64,000 nucleotides of DNA from Coniochaeta sp. PMI_546 (Eukaryota > Ascomycota > Sordariomycetes > Coniochaetales > Coniochaetaceae): the NCBI GenBank assembly GCA_021432605.1, contig MU271160.1:62001-126000 (forward strand). The letters run 5' to 3'. The position numbers were made by a program, and so were the translations under genes. Below the pieces are notes generated by a model. That model did no database searches. It was not told where the DNA came from and was given only the letters and a program-made list of their open reading frames with translations. Each line of letters starts with the position of its first letter. Position 1 is the first letter of the stretch. Shown here piece after piece: positions 33,908-43,100 of the stretch.

Positions 33908-34901
33908 ATGCATGCTGCACGCAACTTCAATAAGACCCGCCTGCTTGCCATGGCAGGTATCATGGAGCTCTCACTCGTTGCTGGCCAGGTAGTCTTGGCG
34001 CCGTCCACCATCACGCAACCTGTCACGCTGTCTGTCGGCACGCCGGCAAGCCAGTTCACCCTCAGTGTGGTCCGGACAGGTCTGGTCACTGTGGATGTCC
34101 ATGGCAGCAACTCATCCCCAAATCCCCTCTCAAGCATCCCCACCGTCTTTACAACCACGCCGAACGCCGCTCCGGACCAGCCATTCAGCCTTCCCACCCA
34201 GCAAGTGGTCGTCACCCAGGCACCTTGCGTGTCTGCATGCCTTCAAGAGGGGCTCATTGCCTCAGCTGCTGGACCTTGCGCCCTCTCTTCAGGAACTGCT
34301 GTTGACAACGCCTGCGCATGTCTTTCCGCACCTCTCGTGGCCATCCATGCCCTCACCAACTGTGCCAGCGCGGCATGCTCGGGCGGTGCTGCTGGATCCG
34401 CTGGACTGGCTGTTGACCTCGTTGCCGTGACCAGCCTGTACAACCAGTATTGTCTTACCGCGGTCGGTGCCGAGGCATTTGCCACTGCCGTTGCCAGTGG
34501 ACAAGCCGTCCAGGCTTCTGCTGCAGACGGATCCAGCACCACGAGTACATTCAGCAGCGAGACGACAACATTGTGGTCAGGAGGCACGATTGGCAATGGG
34601 ACTCTGACGAATAGTACCACTCTGACCACCAACGCGACTTTCGGCGGAGGAACCAACCCCACGGTGGCACCGACGTTTGTTGATCCGGGAATCACGACCG
34701 GTCTTCTGTCGACGACGAGTGCTGTTGGTGCTGCCAGTCCGGGGAGTAAAAGCCAGGCGAATATGAAGCTACCTCGCAGTGCAGAAAGGTCAGTCGTCAC
34801 AAGGATCTTGCCGATATGCTATGCACTGGGCTGACGTCCGACTATCTAGGGCCATTTTCTCGCTCGTATTCGCCCTTGCCATGCCTCTCCTGATGATTTG
34901 A
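33908..34901 (+). CDS. CFEM-like GPI-anchored cell-surface protein
   Basis: Exons 33908-34788 and 34850-34901 give 310 residues. A hydrophobic N-terminus (LLAMAGIMELSLVAG) can serve as signal peptide. Eight cysteines at about residues 108 to 185 follow the CFEM order C-x3-C-x12-C-x11-C-x-C-x13-C-x4-C-x24-C. An Asp lies three residues before the CxC pair (VDNACAC), the position of the heme-iron ligand in characterised CFEM proteins. A Ser/Thr/Asn-rich stalk follows. The short second exon supplies the hydrophobic GPI tail (IFSLVFALAMPLLMI), which supports the splice. The last loop is longer than the CFEM consensus, so the domain is divergent. The likely role is heme or iron capture, or cell-wall adhesion. 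Confidence 0.78.
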
Positions 34902-35282
34902 GTCCTGGCCCGGGATCGCTTCGACATTGCTTTATTAGATATTATCACAAGTCGCGAGACAGTGCAATAACATGGAAGATGCGGTCACAGAAGGAAGAAC
35001 TTTGGGGGAGGATTATCTCATACTGTGCAAGAAAGCTGTTGCGGGCTGTATCAAGGCCGATGTCATAATGTACAGCAGTTGTACCATTGTTGGCCTTCGG
35101 CGGGGATCTGGTCTGTATCGCTACTGCTTTGGGGGTATATGTATCACTACAAACGCTGCCATGTTGGAGGGTCACAGTATGGGGCCATTGAATTAATAGT
35201 TAGCCGCCTTGATGAAGAGAACATGATGCATATCTTTTATCTCCACTATGTGCAAAAAGCAGGCGAACACTCCCGAAACTCC

Positions 35283-38200
35283 TCACTTGATCTGCATTCT
35301 CTCCAGGTGCAGATCCTCCAATGTCAACCCCGACAGGTGAAGCTTGTTCATTTCGTTGGCAATATCGACTTCGACACCCTCGTCGTACGAGTCTTCGTCA
35401 TCCCCGTCTGCGGCCTGCTGGTGACTAGTCTCGAGTACCCTGCCGTCACGAATACGATCGCTTCCTCCTCTGCTGGCGCCTGACTTCAACTCAGGCAGAT
35501 CACGCTCGTCTCCAGCCTCCCAGCCTTCATCACTTGCCTCCCTAACTCTATTACCAACGGGAGTCTTGTCAGCGGTTACGACGGCAGCCTTTGCGCCAGG
35601 GAGGCGTATTTCGCTCGCCTCCAGTGTCTCGAGGATATCTCGCAGAAGAACGTCCATGGGACATATATAAGCGACTCTCTTGCGCTCGCTCCAAGCCAGG
35701 ACGTGTCCGCAGAGGTGGCCGTGCTGGCGGTCCACGACCCAAGCACCACTGTCGCCCGGCACGCCCATGGGGAGCCTTCGCCTGCGCCTCTCCGTAGTCG
35801 TCTCTGGCGTGGTGCCGCTGATTTGGTACGTGTGGCTCGGGGACTTGCGTCCGTAGATCTTTACCGAGGTAAGGGCGGGCAGGATGAGACCTGTTTGCAG
35901 CCCGCTGGTCCTGGCCATACACTGCACCTCTAGACCAGGAAGAGAAGAGGCAGGCGTGACGGCCGTGGGATGGCAAACAGAGGCGTCGAGGGCTGTCGGT
36001 GCTTTACCAGCGCCGGTCTCTTGCGTAGAAGAAGGGGTAGTAGTCGATGGGATAAGGTTCTCTTCCGGCCGACGGTCATTCTGAAACTCGAACAGTGCCC
36101 AGTCGATCTCATGGATCAGGCCTTGGTCGGACCGGCGACGTATTCCGCTCGAGGCATAGACTTCACCTAGGCTGAACGTGTCCAAGTGATCATCGTTCTG
36201 TGTTTCTGGCGAGGGGTAAAACCCTTCTTCGACGTCGTCTAACGCCGGTTGCGTTACGATGTAGCCGTCGCCGCAGCCAGGCTCAATCCCTGGGATATCG
36301 CCAGCCTCGCCTTCGTGATAATCATCCTCTTGCTCGTCTTCTGATGCTTCGCTGGTGATATCCGACTCCGAGAAGGCTTCCGACTCGGAATCAGAGAACT
36401 CGCAGGCGAAGTCCTCGGTGCCACTGCTCTCCGCCTCGTCGTCTAGGGTCTGGTACTGCTCTGCATACCAGGCCGCCAGGTCAGCAACAACCTCGCCCCT
36501 AGCCATGCTCCGCCCGACTATCTCGTTTCCCAGGCCTGCAGATTGGTCCTGATCCGGGTCATCTAGCATATGGTGGACAGTCATCCCGTAAGGTTTGTCG
36601 TCAACCATGATCAGACCACCGAAGCTGACAGGTGGTAGATGGCGGTCACCGATCCAGGCGCCTATGCTCGCGCCATTTTGCGGCCTCTCCTGATAGTCAG
36701 GATTGGCAGCAGATATATCATCGATATCTGTGTCACGCTTCATGCTCCTCCCAACTCCGCGATTCCGCGATCTCAACACCTGTCCTCTGCACACCTTGAG
36801 GCCAAAGCCTGCCCTCCCGTCAAACAAGATGCCCAGCTGCTTCTTGAGTATCGCTCTCACTTTCCCAACAGACGTGCAGACAACGAGAACAGTGGGCTGT
36901 GTCCTTTGCGGCGACTCGCCTATTGACTCGAGGGATATCTCGACCGACTCCGGATGCTTGCGGTAAAAATGTCGAAGCGCCATGTTTATCTGCGGCATGA
37001 GCACCTTGTTCCATTGTTCGACGATGTCTGCAGAGAGAGCCACGTGCGGATAGAGTCGCATTTTGGTCGATGCTTGCTTGCTGGCAGGGATGATGGTTTC
37101 CGGCACTAGACAGTATGGTTAATAAGGTTGCCAGCGATAGCGAAAGCATTCTGTGAAGGTTACCTTGCGGCCTGATACGGGCCTCCTCGGTTTGCGAGAC
37201 GCTAGTTTCTGTCGGAAGGGTTTGCGTTTGTGGCCTGCTAGTGGTGGGCGTATTCGCAACTGAGCCCTTGGACTTGCCCGACTTCTCATCTTTTGAGGAC
37301 CCTGACAATGAAACGGTTCTCAGACGAGTCGGTTGAGCCCTCGCCTCACCAAGATCATCACTCAGACGCTCCTCGAGATTACTAACACCGTCCAGGATGC
37401 AGCAAGCCTCCAAGTACCGACTGGCCTTGAGCTGTACCCTTGCCACTACCTGGTCGCTGGTGTGCTGGCCGGCCATCTCCTGATCCACGGCATTCCAACA
37501 AGTCTGGACGGCCTTCATGTAGAGCGTGCCGCACCGAATCGCGAGCTGCTCAAGAACAGATTCTGGGATGGAGGGCATGGAAGGATCGGGGACGAGATTC
37601 TCCAGCTTGTTCCACAGCCCGATCGAGAGGAGGAGCATTGAAAGGGAGTAGAGGTCGAAAGTCTTCGAGTCGGCGTTGTTGCTCAGGGGCGACTGCGCCG
37701 TACTCCGCGGGTCGAGGGGATGCTTGTAAAGGGAGAAGGTAGCGGAACTCGTCTGGTCGCTTTGGAATGTGTCGGAAAAGAGGTCGAAGGATGATACAAG
37801 AGGTCTTCTGATGTCTACCTCTCCTGTAGTCATCCCACTGACGCCTGGATCGGTTCCAACCGCGTTACAGAAGGAGATGTTGGTGTCGATAAGATTTCCA
37901 TGCGTGATGCCCCTGGCGTGAAGGTCAAAGACAGTATTAGCCAGGTTCGCGGCCAGGCGGAACTTGGCTTCGAGTTTAGGTTCAAAGTCCGGGCGCGCTA
38001 AAAGGTCCGCCAGAGAGCACAGGTTGTACAGGGGATTCTGGGTTAGGTGCTCAAAAGTAACGGGGTTGAAAGTTGCTGGAAACTGATATACAAGACCGTA
38101 TCGCGAGTTTTCTGTGTCCTCAAAATGACCGAGAAGCCGTGGCAGGCCAGTCCATGAGCCCGGCGAACGCTGTGGCTCGGCTTGCAGACCTGCCCAAAGC

Positions 38201-39027
38201 TTCTCGAACCTGGTCATGGGCGGAGGGATGCCGGTGGCGGAAAAGATAGGATCAAAGTTTGCGTACTCGAGCAACAGCGGCGAATGAGGTTGGCGGCCGG
38301 AGGGCCCATGTGTCAACCCAGAGTACGCCTGCTTGCTCATGAAGACAATTTCGCGCGAATGTTTTGACTGGGCCATCTCCGTCATTGGCTCTGCCTGCAT
38401 CGAACGCAAGTTGGTCAAGGCCATGGGATCGATGAGATGTGGCGTCTGCATCCGAGATGGTTCAAATGCCCGGATATCCTCAGTAGAAGACTCGGTCTTG
38501 AAAAGACGCTGACGAGCAGCTTCAGACGACTGCGCATATGAAGACCTCGTCCGTGAAAGATCGTACAACGTGTCGATCGATGAAGTCAGGTCCCGTACAA
38601 GGTCTTCGAAACGGCCTTTGTCCCAGGACACCAGTGGAATCTTCTGATCCCGAGACTTTTCCGAGTCGTAGCCCTTCTCGCTCCCTGCCAGCCGTCGTGA
38701 ACTGTGCCAAAGTGGTTCGGCTTCGGCGAGGATGTCCTTGATGGTTGACATGATGCTTCCTACAACCTCGCTCAGACCGGCCTTGGAGAGCGAAGAGTCT
38801 ATCAGGATCTCAGCCGACTGGCTCGGGTCTGACCATTCGAGACCCCAGCTGACGAGGCGGTCCTTCTGTATGCGTAGCTTGCGGTGGAGCGCCTTGATCT
38901 CTGGATCCTCAGCATTCTGCACAGGTTCTTTGACGAAATCAGACGACTTCTTGGTGTCGTTGTAAAGGCGACTTAGGCGTCGCTGGAAGGGCAGCTGATA
39001 GCCGCCCATCGGGATGAAAGACTCCAT
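35283..39027 (-). CDS. HeLo-like / pseudokinase / trypsin-like protease fusion
   Basis: Exons 39027-37164 and 37105-35283 give 1228 residues. The first 170 residues are helical with [16 protein letters not shown], as in HeLo-type prion-forming or cell-death domains. Residues about 225-550 form a kinase-like fold: the catalytic loop is [11 protein letters not shown] in place of HRDLKxxN and the DFG region reads SFDLF, so it is probably inactive. After a Ser/Thr-rich linker, residues about 765-1115 resemble a trypsin-fold protease, with His799 or His800 (GMTVHHML), Asp956 (EIDWALFEF) and Ser1074 (GDSGAWVV), a complete triad. A very acidic insert of about 70 residues lies between His and Asp. 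There is no signal peptide, so it should be cytosolic. Cell-death or self-recognition duty is inferred from architecture. Confidence 0.82.
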
Positions 39028-40184
39028 CCTGGCTCTCTCGCTCTTGTTGCTATACTGGCGAACTCAGTCCAATTAACAGAGGCGACTGCCTTGTAGACCT
39101 ACAACATCCCTCTTGTGGCGCGCCAGATACAAAGGCTTCAAGTGAACGCAATCAGGTCTGGGCTACACATGTGCGAGTTCAATGAAGCTTATTCCGCTGA
39201 TCGACACCGCGAAGTGAGCGTGCGCGTAGTGGGTATTGCTCCAGAGTGTAGCGACAAGTCGGCGTTGCGGCTGAAAGCTGCAGAGACAGAGCGAGCTGAC
39301 TGTAGATGTAGAAGGGAAGAGAGGTTGTGGGAGCCTCAACAATAGGCGTCCTTCACATCATGAGAAGCCATCACGGTACCCGTGCGACCAAGACAAGTTT
39401 ATTTCGGTGCCTATCGCTAGGCTTGCAGTTAACTACGATAGGTATACTTACGATCTACATTTCTCTCAGGACGAAAGCCTGGGTCGCGCTTCCTTCACAC
39501 ACATTGGCTCGGTTAGGCCTCCAGAATGCTGTTGCCTGATCAGCTCGACATGATGGTCCGTGCTTTCAACTCCAGTCGAAGTGGGTCACCCTGGAAGAAT
39601 GCAGGTGCCTGTTCGAATCACGTGTTTCATACACCACTGCCGTTTCTATCTTAGTAAAGAGCTACGGTAGGTACCTTACCACTAAGCACAATTGAAGAGT
39701 CGACAGCAACATAGTGTCCTGCCAGTCAACAAGACACGATACCAGTCAAAGAAATGTTATGTATTCGTGTCTACCTTATGCATGGAAGCCACGAAAGTAA
39801 ATAGCAAAACGGATTGTCCATGCGTCGAGCCGAGGGGTATATGCTACACATACAAAATGAGAGACACTCTTCAACCAGAGACTTTCCCACCACCTCGATG
39901 TCAACCTTGAAGCTTGCTGCTTCTCCTCACAATCCATCTTTCCTAGACCAGGCTGTTCTCGCCGATCTCTGCGTATGTGCTGCCTCGAGTTCAGAAAAAC
40001 AAAAGACACCAACCCAAGTAAACGTCACATTTCGTCCAGCGTTTGCGATGGTCATTACACATGCTCCCATGTCCTCCTTCATCCCGCCGTTGCAGTCCTT
40101 CAATTTTGATAGAAAGCCAACACTGCAAAGCCTCCAGAGCAAGTGGGCTCGATTCGTGGTTCTCCCTTAGCTCCATCCAGAGCT
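39028..40184. other. Intergenic
   Basis: Upstream region of the HeLo gene and 3' flank of the RDEL protein gene. One GTAGGTACCTTACC step lies near 39668. No gene recognised. Confidence 0.4.
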
Positions 40185-43100
40185 TCACAGTTCATCCCTA
40201 GCGTGCTTCGCAGCCTCAGTAGCTTCACTAGCGACACTAGCAACCCTCTCCCCAACACTCTGCACCGCCTCGGACGCACCGCTAAGCCCCGAGGCCGCGC
40301 CGTCCTGTGCAGCGCTGGCCAGACTGGCAGCCGATGCGATACCTGTACTGTAAGCCGCGTTAAGCCGCGAGAACACGCTTTCCGAAAAGGTTGGTTCCTT
40401 GCCGACAACTAGCTCCGAGATGATGCTGCTAACGACGTGATATTGCTGCGAAGCTTGTCCAGAAGCCGAAGCTGCGTACACGCCAGCAGTGCTGGTGACA
40501 GAAGCCGCTCCGTCAGTGGCTGCGGCAGCATAATCTCCGAGCACACTGTACATGCTCTCGTACCACGGGGTCGGGGTCGGGGCACCGTAGACGCGGACGC
40601 TGAGCTGGCTAATAACGTTGTCCCAGTTCTGCGCTACTGCGTCACCAGCAGCTCCGGCGGCTGACGCGATGTTCTCGTACCCGGCGGATGCAGCCTCGTA
40701 GCCAGCCGCGGCAGCCGATGACACATTCTCGCCGACGACAGAAGCAGCCGACGCGGCAACAGATGCGGCGCTGTCGTAGCCAGCTGAGGCGGCATCGTAG
40801 CCCGCGGCAGCAACAGAGGACACATTCTCTCCGACGACAGAGGCGGCTGACGCTGCCGAGGCGCTGGCGACTGATGCGACGGAGGCGGCCGAAGCACTTG
40901 CTGCAGACGCTGCGGATACAGCTGATGCGCTTGCAGCCAATGCCGCCTCAGATACATTCTCGCCAGCTGCAGACGCAACCGAGGCGGCTGACTCACTAGC
41001 CACGGATGCGAGAGATGACACCGTACCGGCAAAGTCAGTAGGGGTTGACGTTGCCGTTATCGAGCTCACAGCCGAAGAAGCAGCAGCGAGGAACTCGGAG
41101 TAGCGAGCATAAGCAACGCCCAGTCCGGCATAGTAATTGTGACGCGCGTTCTCAAGCAGTTTCTGGACATGCTCTGGTGCGGTTGACGGTGTCGGTGTAG
41201 CGAGACCAATACGGACCTTGGCGCTCTCATACTGTTCTTCAGCCCACGCGCGACCCTGGGCAAGCCTTTCCGAAGCGATGGATTCGATTTGAGCCCACTC
41301 AACTGATGGTACGTTGGGAATAGGTACAGCTGTAGGGAAGAAATTGTTCGTGGTCGGTGCCGGCGCAAACTGTTCCGAAGCTGCCTTCAGAGCGGCATCG
41401 AGGCGGGAGCTGGCCGATGACATGGCGTTGCTATAGACAGACGTGACTGAAGCGAGCATTTGTTCATGTGCCGGTTTCGGCGTACCATGGATTTGCACGG
41501 AGACTGCGGATAACGCTTGGGAATAGTGGGCGTTTGCTTGCGACACGGCAGCTGAGTAGGCGGACTGCGCCATGGCCGAAACCGTCGAGGGTAGCTCGCT
41601 CATCCCGCTGGCCACACTCTCGTAGGTGTCATCATCAAGGATGATTTGACGACTAGGCACCGCCTGAGCCGCGGCGCCGAACATCGCGGATTTGACCGAC
41701 GGGGTTGCGGTGGAGTGGAGGGACTCCTCCTCGGAAGAGGCCAGTATGACGGGTTCCTCCAACTCGACCCCGTCAATCGGGATCTCAACCGGCGCGGGCC
41801 CCTCCTCTTCTAACTCGGTAGTGTTCCCAGAGAACACAGGGGTCTCGGTAAGGAGAATCTCAGTTGCTGCAGAGGCTAGGTCCGGCTTCGTTTGGCTTGG
41901 ATCCTCCTCACTTTCGGGGACAGCAGATTCCGTACCTGATACTACGCTCACAACGGGCTCGAATACCTGGGCTGCAATGCTCGAGGCTGCTTCGGTTGCG
42001 CTGCTGATATTCTCGGAAGCACTAGAAGCGGCTGTCTCGGTCGCACTGCTAACGCTCTCGAATCCCTTCGAGGCTGCTTCAGTCGCGGTGCTCACACCCT
42101 CGGAGACCTCTGAAGCCAACGCCTCAGTTGCGCTGCTAAGGCTCTCGGAACCTTTCGATGTCAGGCTCTGGATGGTAGACGTCCCTTCCAAAACGCTTGA
42201 GACCTCGCCAGACAAGCTGCTGCCGATGCTCTCCGCAGATGCGGTTGCGCTCTCGGCATGACTGGACAAGGCAGACCCAGCGTTTTCGACAGCATGCGAG
42301 GGCTTGAAGACGGGAGCAGCTTCGCTGATAGCGTCCGCAACCGACTCGGCTACATCTTCCACCTTGTCCACGACGCCGTCAGCAACGGACGTGGCGGCAG
42401 CCTTCGCACTTTCGACGGCATCGGCAGCCTGCTTCATTAGATCGCTATCAAACTCCTCGGTGGCGTCAGCGGCAGCCAACTTCCAGGAAGCAACCTGCTT
42501 AAGACGTGCCAGCTCCTTCGCAGCGGACTGGGCGACATTCATGGCCTCCTCCTCGATAGTGGCACCCTCAAGCTGAGCTGCCTCAAGTGCAGGATGGCTG
42601 ACTATCAGCTTCTCCAAGTCGCTGTGCCATTCATCGAATCGGTCCTTGAGGAGGTGGTACTTCTGCCAGTCTCGGTAGGTGATGCCATCCATCCAGGCCC
42701 ACTTCATACCAATTTTCTGGATAGCCAGATCTCTGATAGAGTCCAGGATCCTGAAGTGGTTATCAGCGGCGGTGGTGACAGCGCCGTGCAGCTCGGCCTC
42801 ATAGTTCTCGCGCCACTCGCGCACCTCCTGCGCCTTTTCCTTGATGGCCATACCAGCACGACGCACGACTGAGGTGATCTGTTCCTGGGCTTCCTCGGGC
42901 TTCGCGTTGCCTTTGGACACGGCGCCAACTATATTCTGGATGTCGCGACGTAGAGTCACCAATTCGGAGACCACGGTGGACTGGAGCTGTTCAAGCAGAG
43001 CCTTGCCGGTAGTGCGGGCATTGCGCCGGATCATACGCTTGGAAATCTCATCGACACGGTCCTCAATCTCGCTGGCGCCCTCATCAGCGGCCTTTGTGTA

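Follow-up and report, generated by a model that had tools for sequence, protein, structure and literature searches.

The window analysed here (64,000 nucleotides of Coniochaeta sp. PMI_546, contig MU271160.1, positions 62,001 to 126,000) contains at 35283..39027, on the minus strand, a two-exon gene whose 1228-residue product joins a HeLo domain, a kinase-like domain and a protease-like C-terminal half. Such a fusion had been proposed in a preliminary description of this DNA and was borne out by the gene model, the product of which is identical to a public protein of the same strain (P0001). A second protein encoded in this genome is likewise identical to a public one of PMI_546. The parts of the gene are listed in Table 1. 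The exact splice was taken from the public annotation, because seven alternative GT-AG pairs would likewise preserve the frame (products of 1202-1223 residues).

Table 1. Parts of the fusion gene and their positions in the window
Feature	Position	Strand	Remarks
Exon 1	37164..39027	-	carries HeLo and pseudokinase; codes for residues 1-621 plus the first base of codon 622
HeLo domain, residues ~1-190	38458..39027	-	Pfam PF14479, 30.7 bits; without the usual hydrophobic N-terminal segment
Pseudokinase, residues ~221-555	37363..38367	-	E254 for Lys, HGN for HRD, SFD for DFG; similarity to L013/L014
Intron, 58 bases, GTAACC...CTAG (GT-AG)	37106..37163	-	splice as in P0001
Exon 2	35283..37105	-	pre-protease domain, protease, tail, stop codon
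Alpha/beta pre-protease domain, residues ~636-745	36735..37064	-	model mf72fa1ac1ee5, NAL1 alignment range, profile alignments
Chymotrypsin-type protease domain, residues ~755-1130	35580..36707	-	predicted fold and structure matches
Catalytic His800 codon	36570..36572	-	alignments, including L010
Acidic Ser-rich insert, residues 806-889	36303..36554	-	shortly after the catalytic His
Catalytic Asp956 codon (EIDWALF)	36102..36104	-	alignments
Catalytic Ser1074 codon (PGDSGAW)	35748..35750	-	alignments

A search with the full protein gave 549 homologues at E<=0.001 among 7993 scored candidates, of which the best 120, query included, were listed. All of these exceed 1050 residues and cover at least 92% of the query, and the 119 others share 57-81% identity with it. 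Each named species occurs once, with the exception of Mycothermus thermophilus (twice), and the named homologues are Sordariomycetes of many orders. A search with exon 2 gave 307 matches; its list, again of 120 sequences, adds the Leotiomycetes Glarea and Rhynchosporium. The possibility that two genes had been wrongly joined was set aside, as all 120 homologues listed for the full protein are predicted as single chains and only 20-29% of these retain the separate ATG of exon 2 (codon 637). A pseudogene was likewise set aside in view of the intact frame and strong conservation.

Over the 120 homologues, mean identity to the query is 0.71-0.87 in the HeLo, pseudokinase, pre-domain and protease blocks, 0.60 in the link at residues 191-220 and 0.46 in the acidic insert, and falls to 0.17-0.21 in the linker, variable loop and tail. 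Among four Neurospora species the HeLo part is 97.4-100% and the protease 93.5-99.2% identical. As far as can be judged from sequence, this is the profile of a working protein and not of a fast-changing allorecognition gene.

The HeLo and pseudokinase parts

A profile search of the N-terminus, chosen beforehand as a check on the HeLo assignment, matched PF14479 above its cut-off of 23.2 bits, and a precomputed HeLo match is present in 111 of the best 120 homologues. A hydrophobic N-terminal membrane-attack helix, by the criterion of hydrophobicity only, is absent from every one of the best 120 orthologues, in which the highest 19-residue value is only 0.38. By contrast, six of the seven further HeLo loci in the same genome open their match with a hydrophobic segment (19-residue maxima 0.92-1.85); the exceptional paralogue, L007 (0.24), covers profile positions 65-181 only. 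According to a review, the extreme N-terminal helix is the membrane-attacking part of HET-S and its relatives. Because the hydrophobic segment is missing and residues 1-39 have a predicted local distance difference test (pLDDT) value below 50 in the model, the HeLo domain is probably no longer membrane-piercing, and it may serve in docking or oligomerisation. One of the other HeLo loci (L001 1501-2199, contig C3) has a TAG within the HeLo match, which points either to a broken copy or to an intron left unspliced. In the PADLOC search exon 2 matched nothing, and the one weak partial match of exon 1 (MkoA, E 0.0013, 38 residues) was taken as chance.

The following domain has the kinase fold and lacks the residues of an active kinase. 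The altered catalytic loop HGNL, already pointed out in the preliminary description, retains His376 in 120/120 of the best homologues and Asn378 in 104, while Asp stands there in only three. The place of the beta3 (VAIK) lysine, assigned by eye, is occupied by Glu254 throughout the 120, and the DFG place, also assigned by eye, reads S-F-D, with F414 and D415 invariant in the same set. On these alignments the domain is a pseudokinase. The kinase-like family DUF7580 (PF24476) matched exon 1 with 12.9 bits, under its cut-off of 27. Two kinase-like loci similar to the kinase part of exon 1 adjoin HeLo loci elsewhere in the genome (L013 by L001 and L014 by L006), and for this reason HeLo-kinase genes lacking this protease very likely exist in the same strain.

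The domains just described could belong to a cell-death switch such as the preliminary description had proposed, with the pseudokinase as the sensor of non-self and with a HeLo domain that damages membranes once the protease has released or activated it. Membership of the HeLo family favours this idea, as does the fact that HELL joined to a kinase or pseudokinase is, according to a review, a known fungal cell-death layout. It also draws on Podospora anserina Pa_7_4390 (1236 residues), which is likely the orthologue of the fusion gene, because a P. pseudoanserina homologue (P0099) agrees with it in length and in locus number (tag 704390). PMC3689799 lists Pa_7_4390 only as a HeLo "pore-forming toxin", leaves its field for associated domains empty, and reports it, with 2.58-fold induction, among the seven HeLo genes that are up-regulated in incompatibility. 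However, the hydrophobic segment is missing from all of the best orthologues, the N-terminal 39 residues are modelled with little confidence, and conservation is high, notably in the HeLo part of the Neurospora species. We therefore regard the switch as rather unlikely, and as less likely than the signalling protease discussed below. The membrane toxicity, prion-like assembly, allorecognition and balanced polymorphism raised in the preliminary description found no support: the gene is highly conserved between species, has no close second copy among the scored candidates of its genome and lacks the hydrophobic segment. For a het gene one would expect strong allelic divergence and a patchy distribution, against which the conservation between species speaks.

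The protease half and its relatives

His799, His800, Asp956 and Ser1074, the positions originally read as catalytic, proved invariant in the best 120 full-length homologues (query included) and also in 120 further sequences listed by the exon-2 search (240/240 in total). Because the paralogue L010 reads A-R-H at this place, H800 and not H799 is taken as the catalytic histidine. The predicted fold of exon 2 superimposes on bacterial chymotrypsins with root mean square deviations of 2.4-3.0 over 177-192 residues. The protease half is thus, on the predicted model and the alignments, of chymotrypsin-type (PA clan) fold with a His-Asp-Ser triad. Trypsin owes its specificity to Asp189, at the bottom of the S1 pocket. 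At residue 1068, six before Ser1074 and mapped by counting back, the exon-2 list has Met in 39, Leu in 70 and Ile in 11 of 120 sequences, and hence no trypsin-type Asp; the domain first called "trypsin-type" resembles chymotrypsin in fold and differs from trypsin at the specificity position.

The long acidic insert between His and Asp noted earlier does exist. It measures 64-101 residues in the 120 homologues, and its last 60 residues contain at least 30% Asp/Glu. A role as an autoinhibitory lid is plausible, because the insert comes directly after the catalytic His; nothing was found in support of the calcium role that had also been suggested.

Exon 2 matched no Pfam family even at E up to 10, neither exon matched NCBIfam, and querying the PDB sequences with the two exons in turn retrieved nothing up to E 10. 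When the 82 members of our profile A1 were compared with Pfam, 21 families appeared, each in one or two members (best E 0.017); an alpha-lytic protease prodomain in one member (E 0.038) was taken as chance, as was a ribosomal-protein match of A1 in the PDB (E 0.21). A prokaryote genome scan with A1 yielded nine pattern matches and no relative.

No close second copy of the protease half was found among the scored candidates of the same genome, which contain three weak relatives: L009 (E 1.5e-5), L010 (E 4.5e-4) and L011 (E 0.095). Profile comparison with the protease half gave 97.3% over 348 columns for L010, 95.7% over 157 columns for L009 and 81.3% over only 38 columns for L011. L010 (889-3009, contig C5) comprises a pre-domain and a protease with intact triad, has no Pfam domain above cut-off, and has 48 homologues, those with names being mostly from Sordariales. 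L009 (310-2880, contig C14) is a cysteine-nucleophile variant, with GDC for GDS at its active site, and its frame also carries a transglutaminase/Rad4-type domain. The weaker relative L011 (85-3138, contig C3) likewise has GDC at the active site; its long frame includes a short pyruvate-kinase-like piece as well as C2H2-like zinc-finger matches below threshold, and the locus may be chimeric or decayed.

A connection with the fungal protease Ssy5 (family S64), which in yeast belongs to the amino-acid sensor, is provided by a bridging protein, P0288, which matches S64 with 25.5 bits (cut-off 23.6) and our own profile at E 1e-17; the fusion protease is, at the level of profiles, related to this S64-matching protein. 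The fusion protein might then be a housekeeping or nutrient-sensing protease replacing Ssy5 in fungi without a recognisable one. This is consistent with the relationship to P0288 and with the failure of S64 to match the strain's own genome. However, S64 matched no control genome either, so that the absence of Ssy5 is not established. We consider such a replacement quite improbable.

The best solved structural match of the exon-2 model is rice NAL1 (NARROW LEAF 1), with an aligned range that spans pre-domain and protease, so that the two-domain fold of NAL1 is predicted here as well. The motif RTSG...G is shared by bacterial chymotrypsins such as alpha-lytic protease, and was dropped as a NAL1 signature for that reason. 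In the strain's own genome, NAL1_N matched only L020 (36 residues, E 0.0119, amid short overlapping frames), which was taken as chance; Nal1_C matched neither this genome nor a control genome.

NAL1_N matched none of six archaeal genomes (0/6). In a set of 392, all from a single archaeal phylum, it matched 14, 10 of them above cut-off, at 17 loci (L040-L056). One of these archaeal proteins matches rice NAL1 at about 1e-74, although PMC12915138 describes NAL1 as plant-specific. A profile (A3) was built from nine open frames of the 17 loci. In a separate Hhalign run A1 and A3 scored 37.3, as opposed to at most 27.6 in reversed or shuffled controls (11/11 beaten). The archaeal profiles lend weak support to a link with NAL1.

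The fusion gene lies in an ordinary chromosomal setting. Five ATG-started frames of at least 100 residues overlap the stretch 34500-40000, and two of these are its exons. An arginyl-tRNA synthetase, a ferric reductase and a MARCHF6-type ubiquitin ligase are encoded among the longer neighbouring frames. Upstream, a 949-residue frame (40185-43034) has no Pfam or NCBIfam match. An adjoining frame (33908-34834), also without a Pfam match, resembles a secreted, Ser/Thr-rich protein with a cysteine pattern that we take to be CFEM-like. No gasdermin- or NLR-type domain was recognised in the 10 long frames of the window that were scanned (17 frames are listed, two more of which are the fusion gene; short or spliced genes fall outside such a scan).

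This last result weighs against the cell-death switch, and it bears also on a second death-related explanation, in which the protein makes no pores of its own and a HeLo oligomer gathers proteases, which then cleave a gasdermin or another death effector. The intact triad agrees with a proteolytic executioner of this kind, and a fungal serine protease, HET-Q2, is known to cut the gasdermin HET-Q1. On the other hand, according to a review, over 80% of the gasdermin genes of fungi sit in a cluster with a gene for a protease, while no gasdermin partner was recognised here, and conservation across orders differs from the patchy occurrence of death clusters. We judge this explanation unlikely.

A candidate signalling protease and its known counterparts

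Because the protein is well conserved across many fungi, we favour a signalling protease over a self/non-self killer. The fusion would then be a conserved intracellular protease of Ssy5/NAL1 type under HeLo-pseudokinase control, a reading that we consider about as probable as its opposite. The HeLo-pseudokinase half would act as a regulatory and docking module and not as a membrane-piercing toxin, and the C-terminal half, which brings an alpha/beta pre-domain of its own, as a protease of chymotrypsin type, in the broad class that includes fungal Ssy5 and plant NAL1, cutters of transcription regulators. At rest, the protease might be held in check by the acidic Ser-rich loop near the active site, by the HeLo-pseudokinase half, or by both. 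A signal would release it, most simply phosphorylation of the loop or binding to the pseudokinase, after which it may cut one or a few targets, among them perhaps a transcription regulator that acts when the fungus meets stress or non-self.

Several observations weigh against this proposal. No protease activity, substrate or phenotype is on record for the fusion protein, and any acidic Ser-rich stretch often carries CK2-like sites. The S64 match of P0288 is short (profile positions 632-687 of 692), and none of the 82 members of A1 matched PF08192 (S64), NAL1_N or Nal1_C at E up to 10, in a search whose HMMER filters lose many weak matches. The VIA Z values of NAL1 chains span 16.6-21.0, so that some are no better than bacterial chymotrypsins, Foldseek template modelling (TM) scores to NAL1 are only 0.44-0.53, and A1 missed NAL1 in the PDB sequence search. 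Hhalign aligned A1 with the archaeal profile weakly (70.8%, E 3.8e-5; 24.4% in the separate run), as it did A3 with L010 (11.2%) and P0288 (55.9%). Finally, the induction of Pa_7_4390 is modest, as PMC3689799 reports 2231 genes induced at least 2-fold in the same study, and it is equally compatible with a death-related role.

In broader terms, filamentous ascomycetes may possess an undescribed, conserved three-part enzyme, a NAL1/Ssy5-type protease under the control of an MLKL-like HeLo-pseudokinase, an ancient death module having become a proteolytic switch. Such an enzyme would stand at the head of a broader, so far unannotated fungal protease family, with Cys replacing Ser in some members and with various partner domains. 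This wider proposal is tentative, and we hold it with appreciably less confidence than the signalling reading itself. If it is true, a gene that is widespread in fungi and catalogued as a toxin encodes a regulated protease, and HeLo-pseudokinase signalling is united in one molecule with regulator cleavage of Ssy5/NAL1 type. A further implication would be that fungi have proteases of this sort besides Ssy5, and that plants are not alone in having the NAL1 architecture.

The open-licence literature, in the portions available, contained no description of a HeLo-pseudokinase-protease fusion (including PMC12881547, PMC3531502, PMC4986451, PMC10197012, PMC1325252 and PMC9815663), and in the published table Pa_7_4390 appears without the kinase and protease domains that make up the fusion here. 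The closest known counterparts of its first half are fungal HeLo/HELL kinase or pseudokinase proteins and MLKL, which likewise place a HeLo domain N-terminal to a degenerate kinase. In the HeLo loci of the same genome that have adjoining kinase-like loci, no protease was seen. NAL1, a plant trypsin-like serine protease, shares the pre-domain and protease architecture, whereas it has no HeLo domain or pseudokinase, and no sequence match to the fusion protein was found. Ssy5, according to a survey of fungal serine proteases, is a single-domain protein and the sole fungal innovation among these enzymes (PMC5567314); it differs from the three-part fusion in having neither a HeLo nor a kinase domain. 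Ssy5 nevertheless resembles what is proposed here, as a chymotrypsin-type signalling protease under N-terminal control: according to PMC12958826, it cleaves itself, and phosphorylation and degradation of its prodomain free it to cut Stp1 and Stp2.
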